Positions 32,053-48,890 of a DNA stretch of 64,000 bases are shown piece after piece. Each line of letters starts with the position of its first letter. Within the stretch, counting starts at the first letter, position 1. The DNA is from Immundisolibacter cernigliae (GTDB lineage Bacteria; Pseudomonadota; Gammaproteobacteria; Immundisolibacterales; Immundisolibacteraceae): contig NZ_CP014671.1 in assembly GCF_001697225.1 (NCBI RefSeq), forward strand, positions 62,001-126,000, given 5' to 3'. Made by a program: the position numbers and the translations under genes. The notes beneath the pieces were generated by a model, which saw only the letters and a program-made list of their open reading frames with translations, was not told the DNA's origin and did no database searches.

Positions 32053-32850
32053 TCACGCCGCTCGCGCCGGATGCGCCGCGTGCAAAAAGCGCAGCAGCTC
32101 GGCGCGGCAATGTGTGAAGGCGGCGTCCTCGGCCAGGGCCAGGCGCTCGCGCGGGCGGGCCAACGGCACGGTCATGACTTCACCGACGCGGGCGTGCGGG
32201 CCGTTGGTGAGCATCACCACCTTGTCCGACAGCAGCACCGCCTCGTCCACGTCGTGGGTGACCAGGATGACGGTCATGCCAAGACTGGCGTGCAGTTCCA
32301 GTAGCGCGTCCTGCAGCTGGGCGCGGGTGAGGGCATCCAGGGCGCCGAAGGGTTCGTCCATCAGCAGCACCTTGGGCTGCATGGCCAGCGCCCGGGCGAT
32401 GCCTACCCGCTGGCGCATACCGCCGGAAATCTCGGCCGGTTTGCGATCGGCGGCGTGCGCCATGTGCACCAGTTCCAGGTGCTGCACGGTCCAGTCGTGG
32501 CGCTCGGCCTTGGTCTTGGTTTTGCCGAACACTCGGTCCACCGCCAGGCGCACGTTGTCGTAGGCCGACAGCCACGGCAGCAGGGCGTGGGTCTGGAACA
32601 CCATGGCCCGATCCGGGCCGGGCTCGGTGACTTCGCGGCCTTCCAGGATCACGCCGCCGCGGCTGGCGGTGTGCAGGCCGGCGATGACGTTCAGCAGCGT
32701 CGATTTGCCGCAGCCGGAATGGCCGATCAGTGCCACCACCTCGCCGCGCGCCACTTCGAAACTGGCGCCCTCCAGCACGGTGAGCGGGCCTTTGGGCGTC
32801 GGAAAGGTCACGTCGACCCGTTCCACGGCCAGGAATTTCGATTCGTTCAT
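32053..32850 (-). CDS. nrtD: Nitrate/nitrite ABC transporter ATP-binding protein
   Basis: 265 residues. Walker A GHSGCGKST, signature ISGGMRQRVGIARALA, Walker B VLLMDEPFGALDALTR and the H-loop VTHDVDEAVLLSDKV are complete. The VMLTNGPHARVGEVMTVPLARPR stretch is typical of the NrtD/TauB/SsuB group. Only one ATPase gene is present and it lacks the C-terminal solute-binding-like domain of NrtC, so it presumably acts as a homodimer. It is 65 bp downstream of the permease gene. The end converges with the RelA-like pair. Confidence 0.92.
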   Translation of the reverse strand: MNESKFLAVERVDVTFPTPKGPLTVLEGASFEVARGEVVALIGHSGCGKSTLLNVIAGLHTASRGGVILEGREVTEPGPDRAMVFQTHALLPWLSAYDNVRLAVDRVFGKTKTKAERHDWTVQHLELVHMAHAADRKPAEISGGMRQRVGIARALAMQPKVLLMDEPFGALDALTRAQLQDALLELHASLGMTVILVTHDVDEAVLLSDKVVMLTNGPHARVGEVMTVPLARPRERLALAEDAAFTHCRAELLRFLHAAHPARAA

Positions 32851-32915
32851 GGTCTGGCTCCCGCAAGAAAAATCGCAACCGTTTTCAACCGCTGCCGGCC
32901 TTGAAAACAAAAAAA

Positions 32916-33830
32916 TCAAGGCAATCGACGGGCCAGCAGCAGCAGGGCCTGCTCCAGCAGCAGGCCAACCGCGCCGATGACGAAAATCGCGATCAGGATG
33001 TGTTCGACGTTCAGGTTGTTCCACTCGTCCCACACCCAAAAGCCGATACCCACGCCGCCGGTCAGCATCTCGGCAGCGACGATCACCAGCCAGGCGATGC
33101 CCACCGACAGGCGCACGCCGGTCAGCACATGCGGCAGGCTGGACGGCAGCAGGATGCGTCTGAACACGGTCCATTCGGACAACCGCAGCACGCGTGCCAC
33201 GTCCAGATACTCGCGCGGCACCTGCTGCACACCCGACGCGGTGTTGATGATCATCGGCCAGATGCTGCAGATGAAGATGGCGAAGATCGCCGACGGCTCG
33301 GCCGACCTGAACAGCAGCAGCCCGATCGGCAGCCAGGCCAGCGGCGATACCGGCCGCAGCAGGCTGATGACCGGCCCGGCGGCATCGCCCAGAAAGCGGA
33401 AGCGGCCGATCACGAAGCCAAGCGGAATGCCGACCAGCGCCGCCGCACCAAAACCCAGCGCCACCCGCCGCAGCGAGGCCAGCACGTTCCAGCCGATGCC
33501 CTGGTCGTTGGGCGAGTTTCTATAGAACGGATCGCTGAACAGCTCGACCGCCGACACCCAGGTGGCGGCCGGCCCCGGCAGGCGCGTGTTGGCTGCCAGC
33601 AGTGACCACAGCGCCACCAGCACCAGCAGGCCGACCGCCGCGGCAATCGCCTGTCTGGCAAAGGCCTGCGCACGCGGGTTCGGACCGCTGGCGCGCAGCC
33701 ATGCCGGGCCGTGCGGCGCCGGCGGCGTACCGCCGGGCACCGTTGCCGCGCCCGCGGGCGCGGGTTCTGTCGTGGCCGGTGCAAGCACGGGCCCCTGGGC
33801 TGCCGACACGAACGGGATAACCGCAGCCAT
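32916..33830 (-). CDS. nrtB: Nitrate/nitrite ABC transporter permease
   Basis: 304 residues with a cytoplasmic Pro/Ala-rich N-terminus and about six membrane segments (AIAAAVGLLVLVALWSLLA, ALVGIPLGFVIGRFRFLG, WLVIVAAEMLTGG). The EAA-like coupling loop is RVLRLSEWTVFRRILLPSSL. ATWVSAVELFSDPFY and 'GIGFWVWDEWNNLNVEHILI' are characteristic of NrtB. It moves nitrate across the inner membrane with NrtA and NrtD. It starts 4 bp after the nrtA stop. Confidence 0.93.
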   Translation of the reverse strand: MAAVIPFVSAAQGPVLAPATTEPAPAGAATVPGGTPPAPHGPAWLRASGPNPRAQAFARQAIAAAVGLLVLVALWSLLAANTRLPGPAATWVSAVELFSDPFYRNSPNDQGIGWNVLASLRRVALGFGAAALVGIPLGFVIGRFRFLGDAAGPVISLLRPVSPLAWLPIGLLLFRSAEPSAIFAIFICSIWPMIINTASGVQQVPREYLDVARVLRLSEWTVFRRILLPSSLPHVLTGVRLSVGIAWLVIVAAEMLTGGVGIGFWVWDEWNNLNVEHILIAIFVIGAVGLLLEQALLLLARRLP

Positions 33831-33833
33831 GGC

Positions 33834-35138
33834 TCAACTCCTGATCTTGAAACTGGCCGCATAGGCGGCCGGGTCGGTGCCGTCCCACACCGTGCCGTCG
33901 ATGAGCGTGGATTTGCGCAGCGTGTCCTTGGGAACTGCCACGCCCACCGCCGCTGCCGCCTGCGCGTACACGTCGAGGCGGTTCACTTTCTTGGCCACCG
34001 CCAGATAGTCCGGGTCGCCGGCCATCAAGCCCCAGCGTTTGTGCTGGGTCAGGAACCACATGCCGTCCGACAGCCAGGGATAGGTGACCTCGCCGTCGCG
34101 GAAAAAGCGCATGGGCCTGGCGTCGGTCCATTTCTTGCCCAGGCCGTTCTCGTACTCGCCCAGGATGCGCCCCTTGATGATGTCGACCGGGCAGTTCACA
34201 TACGACTTGGTGGCCACCGCCTCGGCCATCTCGGCGCGGTTCTCCTGCGCGTCGCACCAGCGGGCGGCGTCCAGGATGGCGGCCGTCATGGCGCGCGCCG
34301 TATTGGGGTACTGGGCGACGAACTCGGCGCTGGTGCCGAGCACCTTTTCCGGGTGATCGGGCCAGATTTCCTGGCTGGTGACGGCGGTAAAGCCGATGTC
34401 GTCGGCGATGGCGCGCGCGTTCCAGGGCTCGCCCACGCAAAAGCCGTCCATGTTGCCGACGCGCATGTTGGCCACCATCTGCGGTGGCGGCACGACGATG
34501 TTCTTGACGTCCCGGAACGGATCGATGCCGTTGGCCGCCAGCCAGTAGTACAGCCACATGGCATGCGTGCCGGTCGGGAAGGTCTGCGCGAAGGTGTAGT
34601 CGCGGGCCTTGCCGTCGACCAGCTTTTTCAGACCCGCCCCGTCGGTGACGCCGGCCTTCTTGAGATCGTTCGAGAGCGTGATGGCCTGACCGTTGTTGTT
34701 GAGCGTCAGCAGCACGGCCATGTCCTTTTGCGGGCCGCGGGTGCCCAGCTGCACGCCGTAGATCAGGCCGTACAGCACGTGCGCGGCGTCGATCTCGCCA
34801 TACATCAGCTTGTCGCGCACCGCCGCCCAGGAGGCTTCCTTGGTCGGGGTGATGTTCAGGCCGTATTTCTTGTCGAAACCCTTCAAGGCCGCCATCACCA
34901 CCGGCGCGCAATCGGTCAGCGGAATGAAGCCGATCTTGAGGTCCGGCTTTTCCGGCGCGTCCGAGCCGGCCGCCCAGGCCGCGCTGCGAATGGCCGACGG
35001 CACCAGGTTCAGCAGCGCCGCCGCGCCGGTGGTGACCAGGGCGCCGCGCAGCAGGCTGCGACGGCCCGGATCGACCGGCTGATCGGCCGGCTTGTCCGGG
35101 GTAGCGACGGGGCTGCCGGGGATCTTCGAATCGTTCAT
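33834..35138 (-). CDS. nrtA: Nitrate/nitrite ABC transporter substrate-binding protein
   Basis: 434 residues. A twin-arginine signal (GRRSLLRGALVTTGAAALL, residues about 25-43) sends it folded to the periplasm. The NrtA core follows: KIGFIPLTDCAPVVMAALKG, EASWAAVRDKLMYGEIDAAH, 'VLYGLIYGVQLGTRG', VVPPPQMVANMRVGNMDGFC and VGEPWNARAI, which are nitrate-binding segments. The paralogue NasS at 46996-48222 lacks the signal peptide and acts in the cytoplasm. The gene is preceded by an ANTAR-type leader with a terminator, so it is expected to be induced by nitrate through NasS/NasT. Confidence 0.95.
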   Translation of the reverse strand: MNDSKIPGSPVATPDKPADQPVDPGRRSLLRGALVTTGAAALLNLVPSAIRSAAWAAGSDAPEKPDLKIGFIPLTDCAPVVMAALKGFDKKYGLNITPTKEASWAAVRDKLMYGEIDAAHVLYGLIYGVQLGTRGPQKDMAVLLTLNNNGQAITLSNDLKKAGVTDGAGLKKLVDGKARDYTFAQTFPTGTHAMWLYYWLAANGIDPFRDVKNIVVPPPQMVANMRVGNMDGFCVGEPWNARAIADDIGFTAVTSQEIWPDHPEKVLGTSAEFVAQYPNTARAMTAAILDAARWCDAQENRAEMAEAVATKSYVNCPVDIIKGRILGEYENGLGKKWTDARPMRFFRDGEVTYPWLSDGMWFLTQHKRWGLMAGDPDYLAVAKKVNRLDVYAQAAAAVGVAVPKDTLRKSTLIDGTVWDGTDPAAYAASFKIRS

Positions 35139-35167
35139 GCACAGGCTCCTTGCGCTGCTGTGAGGCC

Positions 35168-35207
35168 AAAAAAAAGCCCGCCGTCACAAGGGTGTGTGAC
35201 GGCGGGC
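35168..35207 (-). terminator. Leader terminator upstream of nrtA
   Basis: On the minus strand a perfect 13-bp stem (GCCCGCCGTCACA paired with TGTGACGGCGGGC) is followed by eight T residues. It stops transcription before nrtA unless the overlapping hexaloop hairpin forms. Confidence 0.92.
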
Positions 35208-35244
35208 TCCGTTGCCCGCGACCACCACGCCGTCGGTGGCGTGG
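35202..35244 (-). promoter_or_regulatory. ANTAR-target two-hexaloop antiterminator upstream of nrtA
   Basis: Minus-strand RNA forms CCACGCC-ACCGAC-GGCGTGG (35225-35244), five bases, then GCGGGC-AACGGA-GCCCGC (35202-35219). Both loops are six bases with A at position 1 and G at position 4, the ANTAR recognition rule. The 3' arm of the second hairpin is the 5' arm of the terminator, so the two are mutually exclusive. A third such hairpin, GCGGC-AGCGAA-GCCGC, lies upstream at 35271-35286. Confidence 0.88.
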
Positions 35245-35314
35245 GTCGGTCCGTTGGGTGGGTCGTGCAGGCGGCTTCGCTGCCGCACACACGACGCTTA
35301 CGCTGTTGCTTAAA

Positions 35315-35329
35315 GCACAACGCGTGCCA
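35315..35329 (-). promoter_or_regulatory. Sigma-54-like promoter of the nrt leader
   Basis: Minus strand TGGCACGCGTTGTGC: a perfect -24 box and a -12 box with one mismatch (GTGC for TTGC). It lies just upstream of the leader hairpins and just past the kinase/phosphatase stop. Confidence 0.6.
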
Positions 35330-35335
35330 GCTGCA

Positions 35336-37030
35336 TCAAGCCCGCGCCAAAAGCACCAGCAGCGCGATCGCCAGCAGCGCGCACAGGCCCTGCCAGAAGC
35401 GCAGCGGATTGCGCGCATACAGTGGCTGACGGCGCTGCGGCGCGGTGCCGGCAGCCCCCGAAAGACCGTGTTCCAGATCGCTCACCAGGTCCGCCACGTG
35501 GGCGTAGCGGTCGGTGGCCTGCACCGCCGTGGCGCGCGCGAGCACCGAATCGAGCCAGGCCGGCAGCTCGGGCCGGTAGTGCGCCAGCGGCTGACGGCGC
35601 GCAAAGCGCGGCCGGGCGAAGGCCTCGGTCTCGCCGTACGGGTAATGCCCGCTGAACATGCGGTACAGCGTGACGCCCAACGCGTACACGTCGGTGCGCT
35701 CGTCGCCGGCATTGCCCTCGAACAGCTCCGGCGCCAGGTAGCTGGGTGTGCCGGGGATGTCCTCGTCGGGCGTGCTCTCCAGACCCGGCAGGCGCGCCAC
35801 GCCCAGATCGAGCAGTTTCAGCCCGCCACCGGCCAGCAACAGCACGTTGTCGGGCTTGATATCGCGGTGCACGATGCGCCGCCGGTGCAGGGCATCCACC
35901 GCCCGCCCGAGCTGGCTGGCGATGGCCACGCCCTCGGCCAGCTCCAGCGGACTGCGCCGGAGGCGTTGCTCCAGCGTTTCGCCGACGTAGAACGGCATCA
36001 CCGAATACAGGCGCGTCTGGCGATCGGGCGCCAGCTCGATGACCTCCGCCACGTAGGGACTGCGCACCTGCGCCGCCACCGCCGCCTCGCGCAGAAAGGC
36101 ATGCCGGTAGATGTCCTCGCCTTCCAGGCGCGGATGCGGGAACTTGAGCGCCACCTGGCGTGGCTCGCGCGTGTCCTGGGCCCGGAACAGCCGGCTGTAG
36201 CGGCCGTCCGAGATCTGCTCCAGCAGCACGAAGCCGTCCACTTCGTCGTCCACCTTCGGCAGCGGCAACAGTGGCAAAGCCGCCAGGGTGGCCTCAAGAC
36301 CCGTCTGATCCAGCGGCGGCAGCGCCAGCACGTCCAGCACCAGCGCCGTGACGTTGTCGCGGCTGCCGGCCTCCAGCGCCGCCGCGACGATGTCGGCCGC
36401 ACTTGCCTGTGGATCCCCGCGGGTCGCCAGCAGGGCTTCGATGCGCCGGTCCGGCAGCGTGCCGTGCACCCCATCCGTACACAGCAGGTAACGGTCATGC
36501 ACGCGCAGCTCGTGCCGGCTGGCGTCGGCGCGCACGTTGTCTTCCAGCGCCACGGCGCGCAGCAATACGTGCTGCAGGTCCGGATGATCGTGGGCGTGAT
36601 CGGTGGTCACCCGGTGCAGGCTCGCGTCGCGCAGCCGGTACACGCGGCTGTCGCCGACGTGCAGCACGTAGCCCTCGCGCCCGCGCAGCAGCAGGGCGCT
36701 GAAGGTGGTCGCCATGCCGCGCAGGGCGGTGTTCTGTCGCGCCAGGCCGTGCAGCCAGCGGTTGATGGCCTGCAGAGCACGGCCGGCGGCGCGTTCCGTG
36801 CCCAGCGTCGCCGGCAGCCCGAAGTAGCCGTCCAGAAACCCGCGAACCGCCGTTTCGGCGGCCAATCGACCGCCCGGACCGCCGCCAACGCCGTCGGCAA
36901 TCACAGCCGCGAACTCGTACCCGCCGCGACTGCCGGCAGGCCGGTCGGCGGCGACGAAATCCTCGTTCTGCGGCCGACGACCGGTCTGGCTGACCAGGCC
37001 GACGCCGACCTCCAGCCGCTCCCTACTCAT
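35336..37030 (-). CDS. Bifunctional PP2C phosphatase / Ser-Thr protein kinase of the nitrate cluster
   Basis: 564 residues. The N-terminal PP2C domain (1-240) has RPQNEDFVAA, VIADGVGGGPGG, LHVGDSRVYRL, LLCTDGVHG and GSRDNVTALVL. A Hanks-type kinase follows: the ATP-binding Lys in VALKFPHPR, the catalytic loop IVHRDIKPDN, DLGVAR in place of DFG, and GTPSYLAPELFEG. A C-terminal membrane anchor is WQGLCALLAIALLVLLARA. The glycine loop (ISDGRYSRLFRA) is atypical. The same fusion is found in nas clusters of pseudomonads, next to narK and nirB, but its target is not established. It is 28 bp downstream of narK. Confidence 0.92.
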   Translation of the reverse strand: MSRERLEVGVGLVSQTGRRPQNEDFVAADRPAGSRGGYEFAAVIADGVGGGPGGRLAAETAVRGFLDGYFGLPATLGTERAAGRALQAINRWLHGLARQNTALRGMATTFSALLLRGREGYVLHVGDSRVYRLRDASLHRVTTDHAHDHPDLQHVLLRAVALEDNVRADASRHELRVHDRYLLCTDGVHGTLPDRRIEALLATRGDPQASAADIVAAALEAGSRDNVTALVLDVLALPPLDQTGLEATLAALPLLPLPKVDDEVDGFVLLEQISDGRYSRLFRAQDTREPRQVALKFPHPRLEGEDIYRHAFLREAAVAAQVRSPYVAEVIELAPDRQTRLYSVMPFYVGETLEQRLRRSPLELAEGVAIASQLGRAVDALHRRRIVHRDIKPDNVLLLAGGGLKLLDLGVARLPGLESTPDEDIPGTPSYLAPELFEGNAGDERTDVYALGVTLYRMFSGHYPYGETEAFARPRFARRQPLAHYRPELPAWLDSVLARATAVQATDRYAHVADLVSDLEHGLSGAAGTAPQRRQPLYARNPLRFWQGLCALLAIALLVLLARA

Positions 37031-42683: not shown

Positions 42684-43063
42684 GGGCCTGCGTCCGGCAT
42701 GGCTATCAACACCCGCTCGCCGTCCAGGCGCACCGGGTAGCTGGCCACGCGCACCGCCGGGTCTTCCAGGCACTGGCCGTCGAGGAGCCGGAAATGCTGT
42801 TTGTACAGCGGCGAGGCCACCACCAGCTGCCCGCCAAGATCGCCGACGATGCCGCGCGCCAGCACGGCGGCCTCACCCAGCGGGTCCCAGTTGTCGAGCG
42901 CATAAACAGCCGGAGTCTCGGCCGGCAGGTAGAAGATCGCCACCTGCCGGCCGGCCACGCGCGCCGCCACGCCGGCGTTGTTCGGCAGATCCTGCACAGC
43001 GCATACGTCGATCCACATCGGTTCCACACCCGGGTTCAGTTGCAGGGCGGCGCTGTCAGCCAT
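42680..43063 (-). CDS. nirD: Nitrite reductase (NADH) small subunit
   Basis: 127 residues with a Rieske-like fold but without the Cys/His cluster ligands: the two loops read LDNWDPLGEA and ASPLYKQHFRLLDGQC. This loss is normal for NirD. The IFYLPAETPAVYALDN and YPVRLDGERVLIAMP strands match the family. It associates with NirB for full siroheme nitrite reductase activity. It overlaps nirB by 8 bp and nasA by 4 bp, so the three are one translational unit. Confidence 0.92.
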   Translation of the reverse strand: MADSAALQLNPGVEPMWIDVCAVQDLPNNAGVAARVAGRQVAIFYLPAETPAVYALDNWDPLGEAAVLARGIVGDLGGQLVVASPLYKQHFRLLDGQCLEDPAVRVASYPVRLDGERVLIAMPDAGP

Positions 43064-46000
43064 GGTCGGCGGCCGCGGTGGCGCGCTCGTCGGCCCGTGC
43101 CGGGCGCGGCTGGCCGCGCTCGCGCACGAAGTGGATCGTCTCGTCCGGCGTGTCGCTGTTCACGAAGGCGCGGAAACGGCGCAGGCGCTCCGGATCGTCG
43201 ACGGTCTTTTTCCACTCGCACTCGTAGGTGTCGATCACGTGGCCCATTTCGGCTTCCAGCTCGGCGCCCAGGCCCAGGCGATCGTCGATGACCACCTCGC
43301 GCACGTACTCGATGCCGCCTTCCAGGTTGTCCAGCCACACCGAGGTGCGCTGCAGGCGGTCGGCGGTGCGGATGTAGAACATCAGGAAGCGGTCGATGTA
43401 GCGGATCAGCGTCGATTTATCGAGCGCGGTGGCGAACAGATCCGCGTGGCGCGGCTTCATGCCGCCGTTGCCGCAGATGTACAGGTTCCAGCCGTGCTCG
43501 GTGGCGATCACGCCGACGTCCTTGCTTTGTGCCTCGGCGCATTCGCGGGTGCAGCCGGACACGGCGAACTTGAGCTTGTGCGGCGAGCGCAGGCCCTTGT
43601 AGCGCTCCTCCAGTTCGATCGCCAGGCCCACGCTGTCGTCCACGCCATAGCGGCACCAGGTGCTGCCGACGCAGGATTTGACCGTGCGCAGCGCCTTGGC
43701 ATAGGCGTGGCCGGATTCGAAGCCGGCGTCCACCAGCCGCCGCCAGATGGCCGGCAGTTGATCCACCCGCGCGCCCAGCAGGTCGATGCGCTGGCCGCCG
43801 GTGATCTTGGTGTAGAGGTCGAATTCCTTGGCCACCTCGCCCAGCACGATCAGCTTGTCCGGCGTGATCTCGCCGCCCGGCACGCGCGGGATGACCGAAT
43901 AGGTGCCGTCCTTTTGCAGGTTGGCCAGGAAGCGGTCGTTGCTGTCCTGCAGGCCCTCGTGGGCGGGCTTGAGCACGTAGTCGTTCCAGCAGGCGGCCAG
44001 GATGGCGGCCACGGTGGGCTTGCAGATGTCGCAGCCGCGGCCGCGGCCGTGTTTTTCCAGCAGCGCGTCGAAGGTCTCGATCCGGCCCATGCGCACCAGG
44101 TTGTACAGATCCTGGCGCGTGTAGGGGAAGTGCTCGCACAGGTCGGTGTTGACCGTGAGGCCGCGCTTTTTGAGCTCCAGCTCCAGCAGGGATTTGACCA
44201 GCGGCGCGCAACCGCCGCAGCCGGTGCCGGCCTTGGTGCAGGTCTTCAGATCCGCCACCGTGGTGCAGCCGCCGTCGATGGCGGCCACCAGCGCGCCCTT
44301 GCTCACGTCGTGGCAGGAGCAGATCTGCGCCGTGGTCGGCAGCTTGTCGGGCCCGAAGGCCGGCTTGCCGCCCCCGCTGTCCGGCAGGATCAGCGCCTGC
44401 GGCTGCGCCGGCAGCTCGATGCCGTTCAGGCAGTACTGCAGCAGGCCGCCGTAGTCGGCGGCATCGCCGACCAGCACCGCGCCCAGCAGGCGCTTGCCGT
44501 CGCCGTCGACCACCAGCTTCTTGTACACGCCCGCCTGGTCGTCCTGGTAGGTGTAGCACAGCGCGCCGGGCGTTCTGGCGTGGGCATCGCCGATGCTGCC
44601 GACGTCCACGCCGAGCAGTTTCAGCTTGGTGCTCATGTCGGCGCCGGTGAAGCTGGCATCGCCGCCGCACAGGTCGGCCGCCGCGGTCTTGGCCATCTGG
44701 TAGCCGGGCGCGACCAGGCCGTAGATGCGCCCGCTCCACAGCGCGCACTCGCCGATGGCGTAGATGTCGGGGTCGCAGGTGCGGCACTGGTCGTCGACCA
44801 CGATGCCGCCGCGCTCGCCGACTTCAAGACCGCAAGCGCGGGCCAGTTCGTCGCGCGGGCGGATGCCGGCCGAGAACACGATCAGATCCGTTTCCAGGTG
44901 CTCGCCGTCGGCAAACACCATGCGGTGACGGCACGATTCGCCGTCCACGATCTCGCGCGTGTTGCGCCCGGTGTGCACGCGCACGCCGAGCGCCTCGATC
45001 TTGCGCCGCAGCACGGCGCCGCCACCGCCGTCGAGCTGTACGCCCATCAGCTGCGGGGCGAACTCCACCACGTGCGCCTCCAGCCCCAGGGCCTTGAGGG
45101 CATTGGCGGCCTCAAGGCCCAGCAGGCCACCGCCGACCACCACGCCAACCCGCGCGCCCTGCGCGCTGGCGCGGATGGCATCCAGGTCATCGAGCGTGCG
45201 GTAGACGAAGCAGCCCGGCCGCTCGCGCCCCGGTACCGGCGGCACGAACGGAAACGAGCCGCTGGCGATCACCAGCTTGTCGTAGGACAGCTGTTCGCCG
45301 GCGGCGGTCGTCACGCTGCGCGCGGCGCGGTCGATGGTCGTCACCGGCGTGGCCGTGCGCAGGCGAAAGCCATGCCGGGCGTAGAAATCCGGCGTGGTCA
45401 GGGCGAGTTCTTCGGCCGTTTTCTCGCCGAAGTACTCACTCAGGTGCACGCGGTCGTAGGCCGGCCGGGTTTCCTCGCCACAGACGATGAGTTCGAAGCG
45501 GTCGGCCGCCGTCTCGGCCAGCGTGTCCACCAGATGCTGGCCGACCATGCCGTTGCCGATCACCAACAGTCGCGTCTTTTGCATGGGCTTGTCCTCGCAG
45601 GCAGATGGGGGAATGCCGGCCGCCAGACGCGGCTCGGCCAACGACCGACCAAACAGCAGCACCTCGCGGGCGGCTGAAATGTCGGTGCGGGAAGCGATGA
45701 GTTGCTGAAACCAGGGGCCGTCCGACACGTCGCCGACCAGCACCGCGCCGACCACCCGCGGGCCGGCCAGCACCAGGCGCCGGTACACGCCGGCCGCCGG
45801 ATCGCGCAGCACCAGATCGTCGGCATCGGGCGCGTCGAAGTCGCCGCTGGAGAACACGTCGATGCCGCTGACCTTCAGCTGTGCCGACACCACCGAGCCG
45901 ACGTAGAGCGCGCTGTCGTCGCCGGCCCTGCGGCGCGCCCACACCGCTGCCTGCTCGTGGACCGGCGCCACCACGCCGTAGCTGATGCCGCGGTGCTCGG

Positions 46001-46838
46001 CGCACTCGCCGACGGCGTCGATGTGCGGATCGGAGGTGGCCAGCGCGTCGTCGACCAGCACGCCGCGGTTGCAGGCCAGCCCGGCCTCGCGGGCCAGTTC
46101 GGCGCGCGGGCCGATGCCGACCGCGAACACCACCAGGCGCGCCGGCAACTCGCGGCCATCGGCCAGCCGGACGGCTTCAACGTGGTGCTCGCCCAGCAGC
46201 GCCTCGGCGCGGGCGTTCAGCTCGAAGCTGATACCGCGGGCCTCGAGCTGGGCTTGCAGGATGGCCGCGGCGAGCGGGTCGAGCTGGCGGTTCAGCAGAT
46301 GGCCGGCCGCGTGCAGCACCGTGACCGCCATACCCTGACGCGCCAGACCGGCGGCGGTTTCCAGGCCCAGCAGCCCGCCGCCGACGACCACCGCCTCGCC
46401 GCCGGCCGCGCAGGCGTCCTGCAGGCGCTGCAGGTGGCTCAGGGTGCGAAAGGCGATCACGCCCGGCAGGCGGCTGCCCTGCAGCGGCGGGTGCGTGGCG
46501 CGGGCACCGGTGGCCAGCAGCAGGCGGTCGTACGTGAGCGACTCGCCATCCGCCAGCAGCACGCGGCGCGTCTGCGGCTGGATGCCTGCCACGCGCTGAC
46601 CGGTCAGCACACGCACGCCGTGGGCCTGCGGATCGTTTTTGGGCTGCAAACGCAGCTGCTCGGCGGCCGCCTCGCCCGCCAGCACGGCCGACAACAGCAC
46701 GCGGTTGTAGGCGGGCGCCGGTTCGGCGCCCAATACGGTCATGCAGTAACGCTGCGGCGCACGGGCCAGCAGCTCGTCCACGGCACGGCTGGCTGCCATG
46801 CCGTTGCCGATCACGATCAGGTGGGGGCGTTCGTCCAT
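43056..46838 (-). CDS. nirB: NADH nitrite reductase large subunit with an extra N-terminal flavoprotein (fusion)
   Basis: 1,260 residues, far longer than the usual ~840. Residues 1-418 are a FAD/NAD(P)H oxidoreductase of the NirB/rubredoxin-reductase type (LIVIGNGMAASRAVDELL, VVVGGGLLGLETAAGLA, VGECAEHRGISYGVVAPV). From residue 419 (MQKTRLLVIGNGMVGQHLVD) a complete NirB begins: FAD and NAD sites, BFD-like [2Fe-2S] (CSCHDV, GCGGCAPL), and the siroheme/[4Fe-4S] ligands in VGSTWCRYG and VSGCTRECAEAQ. A GAGGAC ribosome-like sequence precedes the internal ATG at 45584, so two separate products are also possible. It reduces nitrite to ammonium with six electrons from NADH. An ANTAR-type leader precedes it. 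Confidence 0.9.
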   Translation of the reverse strand: MDERPHLIVIGNGMAASRAVDELLARAPQRYCMTVLGAEPAPAYNRVLLSAVLAGEAAAEQLRLQPKNDPQAHGVRVLTGQRVAGIQPQTRRVLLADGESLTYDRLLLATGARATHPPLQGSRLPGVIAFRTLSHLQRLQDACAAGGEAVVVGGGLLGLETAAGLARQGMAVTVLHAAGHLLNRQLDPLAAAILQAQLEARGISFELNARAEALLGEHHVEAVRLADGRELPARLVVFAVGIGPRAELAREAGLACNRGVLVDDALATSDPHIDAVGECAEHRGISYGVVAPVHEQAAVWARRRAGDDSALYVGSVVSAQLKVSGIDVFSSGDFDAPDADDLVLRDPAAGVYRRLVLAGPRVVGAVLVGDVSDGPWFQQLIASRTDISAAREVLLFGRSLAEPRLAAGIPPSACEDKPMQKTRLLVIGNGMVGQHLVDTLAETAADRFELIVCGEETRPAYDRVHLSEYFGEKTAEELALTTPDFYARHGFRLRTATPVTTIDRAARSVTTAAGEQLSYDKLVIASGSFPFVPPVPGRERPGCFVYRTLDDLDAIRASAQGARVGVVVGGGLLGLEAANALKALGLEAHVVEFAPQLMGVQLDGGGGAVLRRKIEALGVRVHTGRNTREIVDGESCRHRMVFADGEHLETDLIVFSAGIRPRDELARACGLEVGERGGIVVDDQCRTCDPDIYAIGECALWSGRIYGLVAPGYQMAKTAAADLCGGDASFTGADMSTKLKLLGVDVGSIGDAHARTPGALCYTYQDDQAGVYKKLVVDGDGKRLLGAVLVGDAADYGGLLQYCLNGIELPAQPQALILPDSGGGKPAFGPDKLPTTAQICSCHDVSKGALVAAIDGGCTTVADLKTCTKAGTGCGGCAPLVKSLLELELKKRGLTVNTDLCEHFPYTRQDLYNLVRMGRIETFDALLEKHGRGRGCDICKPTVAAILAACWNDYVLKPAHEGLQDSNDRFLANLQKDGTYSVIPRVPGGEITPDKLIVLGEVAKEFDLYTKITGGQRIDLLGARVDQLPAIWRRLVDAGFESGHAYAKALRTVKSCVGSTWCRYGVDDSVGLAIELEERYKGLRSPHKLKFAVSGCTRECAEAQSKDVGVIATEHGWNLYICGNGGMKPRHADLFATALDKSTLIRYIDRFLMFYIRTADRLQRTSVWLDNLEGGIEYVREVVIDDRLGLGAELEAEMGHVIDTYECEWKKTVDDPERLRRFRAFVNSDTPDETIHFVRERGQPRPARADERATAAADHG

Positions 46839-46893
46839 GATTGTCGGTTCAAGCGCGTAACACCGCCCTGGCACAAACCAGGGTCCTGTTCGG

Positions 46894-46995: not shown

Positions 46996-48222
46996 TTAGT
47001 GAGCAATCTTCGCGCCAACGTCCGCCGGGTCGAACACGGCCCCGTCGATGAATCGGTCGGGGCCCAGCGCGACCGCCGCATTGCCCTCACCGAGTTTCCA
47101 GGCGCAGCGATGGCCGCCTTCGGCCTTCATGTCCACGGCCGGCGGCGCCACGCCCAGGCGCGCCGCGGCCAGCCGGTAAATGTCCGGTCGGTACGTGGCA
47201 TGGGCCGCGGCCAGCAGATCGGCATCGGCCGGCAGCTGTCCCCAACGGACCATTTGCCGCAGCATCCACAAAGCATGGGAGCGCCAGGGGAAGTTGGCGG
47301 CATAGCGGTAAAAGACGTGAAAGTCCGTCAGCTCGCGCTGCGTGCCGCGCTGGTCGACCGTCAGGCGCCCGCTGAGCGAGGCCGCAATCACCTCCACCGG
47401 CAGGTTGAGGTAGGTCTCGCCGGCCAGCAGATGCGCGGCCCGCAGGCGATTTTCGGGGCTTTCATCGAGCCAACGAGCGGCCTCGACGATGGCGCAGATC
47501 AGCGCCATGTGCGTGGCCGGGTAGCGCTGCGCCCAGGCGGCGCCCACGGCCAGCACCTTTTCCGGCGCGTTGTTCCACACGTCGTGTCCGGCGGCGACGA
47601 TGCAGCCGATGCCGTCGCGCACCGCCAGCGTGTTCCAAGGCTCGCCGACACAATAACCGTAGATGTCACCCTGTTTCAGGCGCTGCACCATCTGCGGCGG
47701 CGGCACCACGATCAGGCGCAGGTCACGGTCCGGGTCGATGCCCGCCGCGGCCAGCCAGTAGCGCAGCAGATAGGTGTGGTTGGAGGTGGGGTACACGGTC
47801 GCGAAGGTCAGTGGATCCGCGCCTGCCGCCCGGCGCCGCGCGATGACACTGGCCAGCGCCTGCGCGGTCACGGGCTGGCCGTCCGCGGCCGCCTGCATGT
47901 CCCGGTACAGGTTGTCGGCGACGGTGATGGCATTGCCGCCCAGGCCAAGACTGAGGGCCGTCACCAGCCGCTGCGGCACGCCTTCCACACCCAGCGAACA
48001 GGCCAGCGCCATCGGCGCCAGCAGGTGCGCGCCGTCCAAATGACCGATGCCGAGCTTGTCGCGCAGCGTGGCCCACGAGGGCTGGCGCGACAGGCTGACG
48101 TCCAGGCCGTAGTGCTCGAAGTGGCCGTTTTCGAGCGCCACCACCAGCGGCGCGGCGTCCGTGAGCGGGATATAGCCCAGACGCAGTCGGGGCAGTTCCG
48201 GGGTCGGCAGGCTCGGGCTCAT
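46996..48222 (-). CDS. nasS: Nitrate-sensing regulator NasS (NrtA-like, cytoplasmic)
   Basis: 408 residues, homologous to NrtA (RLGYIPLTDAAPLVVALENG, PSWATLRDKLGIGHLDGAHL, IVVPPPQMVQRLKQGDIYGY, CVGEPWNTLAVRDG) but starting directly with the mature domain and no signal peptide. This is the NasS pattern: it binds nitrate or nitrite in the cytoplasm and, when empty, holds NasT inactive. Its start overlaps the nasT stop (ATGA), as expected for a sensor and antiterminator made in fixed ratio. A transporter-component role is the alternative but fits the lack of export signal poorly. Confidence 0.92.
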   Translation of the reverse strand: MSPSLPTPELPRLRLGYIPLTDAAPLVVALENGHFEHYGLDVSLSRQPSWATLRDKLGIGHLDGAHLLAPMALACSLGVEGVPQRLVTALSLGLGGNAITVADNLYRDMQAAADGQPVTAQALASVIARRRAAGADPLTFATVYPTSNHTYLLRYWLAAAGIDPDRDLRLIVVPPPQMVQRLKQGDIYGYCVGEPWNTLAVRDGIGCIVAAGHDVWNNAPEKVLAVGAAWAQRYPATHMALICAIVEAARWLDESPENRLRAAHLLAGETYLNLPVEVIAASLSGRLTVDQRGTQRELTDFHVFYRYAANFPWRSHALWMLRQMVRWGQLPADADLLAAAHATYRPDIYRLAAARLGVAPPAVDMKAEGGHRCAWKLGEGNAAVALGPDRFIDGAVFDPADVGAKIAH

Positions 48223-48806
48223 TTGAACAACTCGGCGGTGTCGATCACGCCCTGGGCAATGTCGGCGATGGTCTTGTTCTGGTCCATGGCCAGCTTGCGC
48301 AGGGCGTGGTAGGCCTCGCTTTCGGTACGCCGGCCGCGCTCCATGAGAATGCCCTTGGCGCGATCGATAAGCTTTCGCTGCGCCAGACTGGTGCGCGCCT
48401 CGGCCAGTTCGCGCTGTAGCGATGCGTACTGACGAAAGCGCGCGACCGCCACCTCCACCACCGAGTGCACCCGGCCAGGACTGAGGCCGTCGACCACGTA
48501 GGCGCTGACGCCGGCCTCGATGGCCTCGCGAATGGCCTCGCTATCGGACGAGGTGGCGAACATCACCACCGGATGCGGATTGTCGCGCGACAGGCAGCGC
48601 ATGTTCTCGAGAATGTCGCGGTCGGGCGATTCCAGGTCGATGATCACCACGTCCGGCGTGCAAGCGGCCACCGCCCGCAACAGCCCGTCGGCGGTGCCGA
48701 GCTCGGCCACCACCGCGAGGCCGGCGCCGTCCAATGCGGCGGCCACCAGCGCGCGGCGTTCGAGGTCGTCATCGACCAGCATGACGCGCAAGGAGGCAGA
48801 TTTCAT
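48219..48806 (-). CDS. nasT: ANTAR-domain transcription antiterminator NasT
   Basis: 195 residues. The N-terminal receiver-like domain (1-120) has RVMLVDDDLERRALV and the phosphoacceptor-region VVIIDLESPDRD. A coiled-coil linker (RFRQYASLQRELAEARTSLA) leads to the C-terminal ANTAR three-helix bundle: RKLIDRAKGILMERGRRTES, EAYHALRKLAMDQNKTIADI, AQGVIDT. ANTAR dimers bind paired hexaloop hairpins and prevent terminator formation. Three matching RNA targets lie within this window, before nirB, the porin gene and nrtA. A sigma-54-like promoter lies 38 bp upstream. Confidence 0.95.
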   Translation of the reverse strand: MKSASLRVMLVDDDLERRALVAAALDGAGLAVVAELGTADGLLRAVAACTPDVVIIDLESPDRDILENMRCLSRDNPHPVVMFATSSDSEAIREAIEAGVSAYVVDGLSPGRVHSVVEVAVARFRQYASLQRELAEARTSLAQRKLIDRAKGILMERGRRTESEAYHALRKLAMDQNKTIADIAQGVIDTAELFK

Positions 48807-48843
48807 CCGGGACAGGCAATGTCGGGGGCTTGTAACTTGCATA

Positions 48844-48858
48844 GCAGTGGCCGTGCCA
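48844..48858 (-). promoter_or_regulatory. Sigma-54-like promoter of nasT
   Basis: Minus strand TGGCACGGCCACTGC: perfect -24 TGGCACG, -12 CTGC with one mismatch, correct spacing. It lies in the 84-bp gap between priA and nasT, which would place nasTS under nitrogen control. Confidence 0.6.
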
Positions 48859-48890
48859 GGGGCGGCCAATCGGCCTCGCGCGGGTATCGA

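Follow-up and report, generated by a model that had tools for sequence, protein, structure and literature searches.

A predicted NasT antitermination leader with a third hexaloop hairpin in front of nrtABC

Genes, promoter and leader at the nrtABC locus

The stretch of DNA analysed here (64 kb; hereafter the window) carries on its minus strand an nrtABC gene set, a leader directly in front of nrtA and, farther upstream, genes for the ANTAR protein NasT and a candidate nitrate sensor. The features needed below are the following, in positions of the window.

33834 to 35138, minus strand: nrtA-type nitrate-binding protein, the target gene (Pfam NMT1_2, E 6.4e-109)
32916 to 33830, minus strand: nrtB-type permease (NCBIfam TIGR01183, 248.3 bits, cut-off 209.05)
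32053 to 33174, minus strand: nrtC-type ATPase (NCBIfam TIGR01184, 319.9 bits, cut-off 291.8); this is the open reading frame as listed, and the true start is probably later
48219 to 48869, minus strand: nasT, with receiver and ANTAR domains (Pfam PF03861, 69.1 bits; PF00072)
46996 to 48222, minus strand: nasS candidate, an NrtA-like nitrate sensor gene overlapping nasT (Pfam NMT1_2, E 5.2e-84)
35314 to 35329, minus strand: sigma54 -24/-12 promoter element TGGCACGCGTTGTGCT (GG-N10-GC, score 11/12), with a predicted start at about 35303
35262 to 35295, minus strand: P0, third ANTAR-type hairpin (34 nt, 13 pairs, one mismatch), hexaloop AGCGAA at 35281-35276
35244 to 35225, minus strand: P1, ANTAR hairpin CCACGCC-ACCGAC-GGCGTGG (7-bp stem), hexaloop ACCGAC at 35237-35232
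35219 to 35202, minus strand: P2, antiterminator hairpin GCGGGC-AACGGA-GCCCGC (6-bp stem), hexaloop AACGGA at 35213-35208
35168 to 35210, minus strand: intrinsic terminator of 13 bp (16 with GGA:UUU), with a 6-nt loop and U8
35146 to 35151, minus strand: AAGGAG, 7 nt before the nrtA ATG, which we take to be the likely ribosome-binding site of nrtA

A search of the whole 3.24-Mb genome gave one match, nasT, as the only ANTAR protein found. The adjoining gene, whose product is 41% identical to the NrtA of the window, is named as a candidate nasS for its position beside nasT. Both lie about 13 kb upstream of the leader on the same strand, and are followed in order by genes for a nirB-type nitrite reductase, an assimilatory nitrate reductase-like protein, a porin-like protein, a NarK-like transporter and a kinase/phosphatase, and then by the leader and nrtABC; the porin, nitrate reductase and NarK labels come from sub-cut-off or general matches combined with context.

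Several genes of this neighbourhood have features of their own. The gene between narK and the nrtA leader (35336-37030, minus strand) encodes a PP2C phosphatase fused to a Ser/Thr kinase. NirB (43056-46841, minus strand) is a single frame of 1261 aa with an extra N-terminal reductase half, the NirB model covering residues 425-1217, and the nirB open frame is also long (1312 aa) in G001, the genome of a close relative. The nrtA locus of G001 (L088) has a kinase remnant after the porin gene, narK and the bulk of the kinase gene having seemingly been lost; promoter and leader are intact there despite this apparent loss. In the gap between nasS and nirB (46912-46893, minus strand) we found a single A1/G4 hexaloop hairpin, AAAGAC on 7 pairs, which is conserved in G001. 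A second leader before nirB was considered and dropped, as the covariance model gave only 13.6 bits and no terminator follows.

The leader fills 197 nt between the stop of the kinase/phosphatase gene (35336) and the start of nrtA (35138). Reading 5' to 3', it contains the sigma54 element, the predicted start, P0, P1, P2, and the terminator with its U8. P1 and P2 are separated by 5 nt, and the 3' arm of P2 is the start of the 5' arm of the terminator, whose stem, GCCCGCCGTCACA-CACCCT-TGTGACGGCGGGC, spans 35207-35176, with U8 at 35175-35168. P0 stands 17 nt before P1, makes no contact with the terminator, and presents its A1/G4 hexaloop on a closed stem with a C-G closing pair. An earlier note on this DNA had described a pair of A1/G4 hairpins with six-base loops (ACCGAC and AACGGA) separated by five bases, a 13-bp terminator with U8 sharing the 3' arm of the second hairpin, and a third hexaloop upstream, AGCGAA; we recovered all of these, the pair being P1 (35244-35225) and P2 (35219-35202), the terminator lying at 35207-35168, and the third loop at 35281-35276 within the 13-pair hairpin P0. 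It had overlooked the sigma54 element, at the edge of the stretch it dealt with, and the length of the P0 stem.

None of 200 shuffles was as stable as the whole leader (z = -4.96) or as the terminator alone (z = -6.51). In computed folding the terminator state reaches -79.4 kcal/mol against -70.4 kcal/mol with P2 forced, a gap of 9 kcal/mol in favour of the terminator; the folding order is P0, P1, P2, and all three hexaloops form before the 3' arm of the terminator emerges. Single A1/G4 hexaloop hairpins with stems of at least 4 pairs are frequent by chance (88 per strand in the 64 kb). A dual A1/G4 hexaloop with a fused terminator was found only in this leader within the window, the second dual-hexaloop row of the scan being an overlapping frame of P1 and no separate site.

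An Rfam search found no family at gathering score in the leader, the family names listed including no ANTAR motif. The best sub-threshold match was the Burkholderia anti-hemB RNA (RF02837; 21.1 bits against a gathering score of 49.5), at 35168-35245 on the minus strand, over P1, P2 and the terminator; an anti-hemB identity was set aside, the score being far under the gathering threshold.

The leader class across nrtA loci

We compared 99 nrtA loci, comprising the best 80 of 558, the window, two further loci of the genus (L083 and L084), and 16 of the 21 from a class-wide sample, in which L108, L109, L111, L112 and L113 were left out for a missing anchor motif. In 75 of the 99 (the best 80 of 558 among them), a rule based on the loop and the 3' arm found a terminator-linked A1/G4 hexaloop hairpin. 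With each of the 15 alternative letter pairs in loop positions 1 and 4, the same rule retrieved 1 to 9 loci of 99. Strict terminator rules caught P2 in only 29/83 and 31/99 loci, because many terminators are bulged. The 24 loci that fail the loop and 3' arm rule include contig ends (L004, L049), visible hexaloops that it missed (such as L006, L007, L010, L017 and L040), and hexaloop-free loci. In some loci (e.g., L002, L018, L042 and L072) the rule seems to take P1 as P2, which leaves counts of extra hexaloops rough; 12 of the 75 leaders have no second hexaloop by the relaxed rule, and in some of these P1 was mistaken for P2.

The stems covary. In an alignment of 39 of the 40 leaders with P1-P2 loop spacing of 17-33 (L003, with 17, fell under the lower bound of 18), double changes occur at 7 of 10 pairs of P1 and P2, in 65 cells against 14.3 in shuffles; 97.9% of cells are paired, a figure inflated by the choice of rows for their hexaloop stems. 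The P1-P2 covariance model R1, made from 39 leaders with our own among its rows, gave this leader as the best match in the genome at 38.1 bits. The next scored 18.6 bits, and the matches at or below that score that were aligned each lacked a proper P1 or P2. The loops AGCGAA (P0) and ACCGAC (P1) of our leader deviate from the AA-G-- form of most relatives.

The link with nasT is also common: among the 99 loci (including the best 80 of 558), 79 have nasT nearby, and in 72 it is on the same strand and ends within 1.5 kb upstream. Our leader thus combines paired A1/G4 hexaloops on stems of at least 3 bp, a linker within range, mutual exclusivity of P2 and terminator, an ANTAR protein in the genome, and stem covariation. 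It is a member of the known class of ANTAR/NasT antitermination leaders, its binding by NasT being predicted. The claim of a NasT-responsive leader made in the earlier note is strongly supported by the presence of nasT and nasS in the window, the frequency of nasT near nrtA and the covarying stems; the check it had proposed, folding and covariance across relatives, was run, and both the P1/P2 and the P0 stems covary.

Elements resembling the promoter are similarly widespread. Scoring GG-N10-GC with TGGCACG-N4-TTGC-like letters (maximum 12), we found an element of score 10 or more in 79 of the 99 nrtA upstream regions, the best 80 of 558 again included, against 1/99 in each of two controls, which were nrtA coding stretches of the same length. 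The genome has rpoN. The number of Ntr-type enhancer sites in the window does not differ from chance (33 against 33.3 expected); one site with 2 mismatches is at 35520-35536. In 46 of the 52 leaders that have a promoter, the first hexaloop is located between +8 and +23 relative to the predicted start; in ours, the sigma54 element just upstream puts P0 at the predicted 5' end of the transcript. At least eight sigma54-promoted nrtA genes appeared by eye to have no A1/G4 hexaloop hairpin (L019, L020, L030, L036, L070, L076, L094 and L098). At L095, L096, L097 and L100-L103 the leader comes immediately after nasT, and the DNA upstream of P2 gave no sigma54 element; the attenuator therefore seems to be internal to a nasT-nrtA operon.

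The spacing between the last two hexaloops falls into a short group (17-33 nt; 40 of the 62 leaders) and a long one (38 nt or more; the other 22). Under the relaxed rule, 20 long-gap leaders have two hexaloops, and in 10 of them the linker folds more stably than roughly 95% or more of its simple shuffles. In these leaders the middle hexaloop often has a plain spacer hairpin in its place, which suggests that distance along the folded RNA, rather than the number of nucleotides, is held; judging from this folding of long linkers, the middle hexaloop of three-hexaloop leaders may also be a spacer hairpin. Five loci of Thiobacillus-type, Hydrogenophilus-type and related origin (L008, L009, L034, L053 and L067) have CATGTCGCTCCTT, or nearly so, conserved in the linker before P2.

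Conservation and recurrence of the third hairpin

P0 occurs in all three genomes of the genus examined, two of which are near-identical. In the third (L084) the stem is altered at many positions and is still fully paired (14 pairs), and the loop has changed from AGCGAA to AGTGCG, keeping A1 and G4 while three other letters differ. Across the three genomes, double changes affect 5 pairs of P0, where shuffles average 1.6 and slid controls give 0 or 1, and RNAalifold recovers P0 unaided. In the Undibacterium group, RNAalifold also finds a third hairpin, with double changes at two pairs, the loop being drawn with an A-U pair across positions 1 and 6. A pooled count of P0 pairs over the three-hexaloop leaders was set aside as evidence, as those rows were chosen for having stems. 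P0 is very probably under selection.

The earlier note had called the third hairpin unusual, which is only half right: the strict rule detects a third A1/G4 hexaloop in 18 of the 75 leaders and the relaxed rule in 23, our own genus included. On the NrtA tree these leaders belong to our genus, the Undibacterium group, a Sulfuricella-like group, Methylophilaceae, and gamma groups. By the relaxed rule the three-hexaloop label takes 11 changes (gain or loss) on this tree, at least nine of them forced by starred branches, against a mean of 19.9 when shuffled; the label thus clusters in clades, yet is spread over several. The loop can also be lost, as L055, a close sister of L045, keeps the P0 stem with a GTTTT loop. 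Most of the 23 three-hexaloop leaders have their P0 and P1 loops 27 to 44 nt apart (outliers at 22, 59, 73, 99 and 129), and 22 of the 23 have a P1-P2 loop spacing of 17 to 27 (L039, with 55, is the exception). The leader class itself is already known; what is new here is the third hairpin, recurrent in several clades. In the open-licence literature of PubMed Central we found no description of three hexaloops in a NasT or NasR leader.

As a 13- to 14-pair stem near the predicted transcription start, P0 could be merely a 5'-terminal stability hairpin that protects the mRNA, or the 5' end of the attenuated RNA, with A1 and G4 there by coincidence and NasT using P1 and P2 alone. The stem retained without a hexaloop in L055 is in line with this, as is the finding, in the portion of PMC7496416 drawn on here, that two hairpins are enough for full NasR binding. 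The loops argue otherwise. All three genomes of the genus retain A1 and G4, even with three other loop letters replaced in L084. Of the 30 hexaloop hairpins that lie upstream of P1, 19 are of the A1/G4 type (7.5 per kb), against 8.8% in both controls (41 of 465, or 0.73 per kb, in nrtA coding DNA; 20 of 228, or 0.82 per kb, in DNA preceding the promoter), a density about tenfold above control DNA. Moreover, the gamma leaders L096, L099, L100, L102 and L103 carry extra hexaloops with no sigma54 start found nearby. We therefore consider a role in stability alone unlikely.

The earlier note had suggested a second register for NasT binding. On this reading P0 and P1 would form a dual motif of their own, bound by one NasT dimer before it moves to P1 and P2. 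Such a pairing would be compatible with the 27 to 44 nt between the P0 and P1 loops of most three-hexaloop leaders and with the 22 of 62 leaders whose last two hexaloops are 38 nt or more apart; given these long-gap leaders, NasT may tolerate longer spacing than EutV. As far as the cited sources go, ANTAR linkers work at 5-12 nt in eut leaders, a range of 2-25 nt has been used (PMC8164766), and a linker of 14 nt drastically lowered the induction of eutP by EutV, the A1/G4 loops and the length of the linker both being important (PMC3369931). The linker between P0 and P1 in our leader is 17 nt, P0 does not touch the terminator, and P0-P1 spacing varies widely, against the narrow P1-P2 spacing of 22 of the 23 leaders. 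A second register is thus not the best reading for this leader and seems quite improbable to us; an additional recruitment hairpin fits better. Finally, a leader read by some other RNA-binding protein, or acting as a plain constitutive attenuator, would agree with the lack of an Rfam family at gathering score, and is hardly credible given the loop letters, the genomic link to nasT, the single ANTAR protein of the genome and the covariation.

Proposed mechanism and comparison with known systems

Our preferred reading, to which we assign a probability of about 0.75, is that this leader regulates a sigma54-dependent nrtABC transcript through antitermination by NasT, with P0 as an extra docking hairpin. 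From the promoter, sigma54 RNA polymerase would start near 35303 under nitrogen shortage. The emerging RNA is computed to fold P0, then P1, then P2; unaided, the 3' arm of the terminator would then displace P2, and transcription should stop at U8. By analogy with known NasS-NasT systems, nitrate would bind NasS and free NasT, which would grip the A1/G4 hexaloops and hold P2, so that the terminator is blocked and nrtABC is transcribed. This antitermination switch is, with high confidence, the predicted function of the leader. P0, the first hairpin to fold, may serve at the 5' end of the RNA as an extra docking hairpin, which would recruit or load NasT, in dimeric or higher oligomeric form, before P1 and P2 exist, thus widening a short decision time. 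Judged from sequence features, a docking site for NasT is the predicted role of P0 that we favour, with some reserve, and the recruitment-hairpin model of PMC8934654, as set out in the parts cited, fits it best. More tentatively, three-hexaloop leaders might be a distinct, recurrent ANTAR architecture in which oligomeric NasT is loaded close to the promoter and handed from P0 to P1 to P2, the number and spacing of hexaloops tuning the nitrate response.

There is disagreement over how two hexaloops are used by an ANTAR dimer. In the relevant parts of PMC3369931 and PMC3369936 both are bound at once, whereas the alternative published in PMC8934654 is sequential, a recruitment hairpin followed by the antitermination hairpin; the portion of that paper considered here also gives EutV a similar affinity for isolated P1 and P2. 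A natural three-hexaloop leader, with sisters that have two hexaloops or have lost the loop, provides ready variants to discriminate between these models, and searches for dual hexaloops alone under-describe NasT targets.

As far as it is described in the cited part of Ramesh et al. 2012 (PMC3369931), the dual-hexaloop RNA of EutV, NasR and AmiR shares with our leader two small A1/G4 hairpins, a short linker, an overlap of P2 and terminator, and an ANTAR protein in the genome; ours differs in its third A1/G4 hairpin upstream and in stems that exceed the three-pair minimum. The NasS-NasT leaders of nas genes in Paracoccus denitrificans (PMC3795266, PMC5424462) and of nosR in Bradyrhizobium (PMC6759348) are alike, in the sections used, in having nasT and nasS with a nitrate-assimilation operon and a hairpin leader. 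In Paracoccus, according to the same sections of PMC3795266 and PMC5424462, nitrate or nitrite makes NasS release NasT, which binds the nasA leader, for which two hairpins, HI and HII, are described; freed NasT is oligomeric, in broad agreement with a hexamer, and causes a shift of the leader RNA (PMC3795266). In contrast to these systems, our target is nrtABC, the leader lies about 13 kb from nasT, and it has three hexaloops.

The nasF/NasR system of Klebsiella (PMC3369936, PMC7496416; Ntr control in PMC5424462), on the evidence of the parts cited, likewise joins transcription control by nitrogen limitation to nitrate-dependent ANTAR antitermination. Unlike our NasT, NasR carries its own nitrate sensor, and two hexaloops are reported for the nasF leader. 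The nearest precedent we found for P0 is in EutX/Rli55 RNA, which combines a dual hexaloop motif with one additional single hexaloop with G4. In the portion of PMC8934654 that deals with it, EutX is a small RNA thought to sequester EutV, and not an mRNA leader with an extra hairpin before the antiterminator, which is the arrangement of the leader described here.
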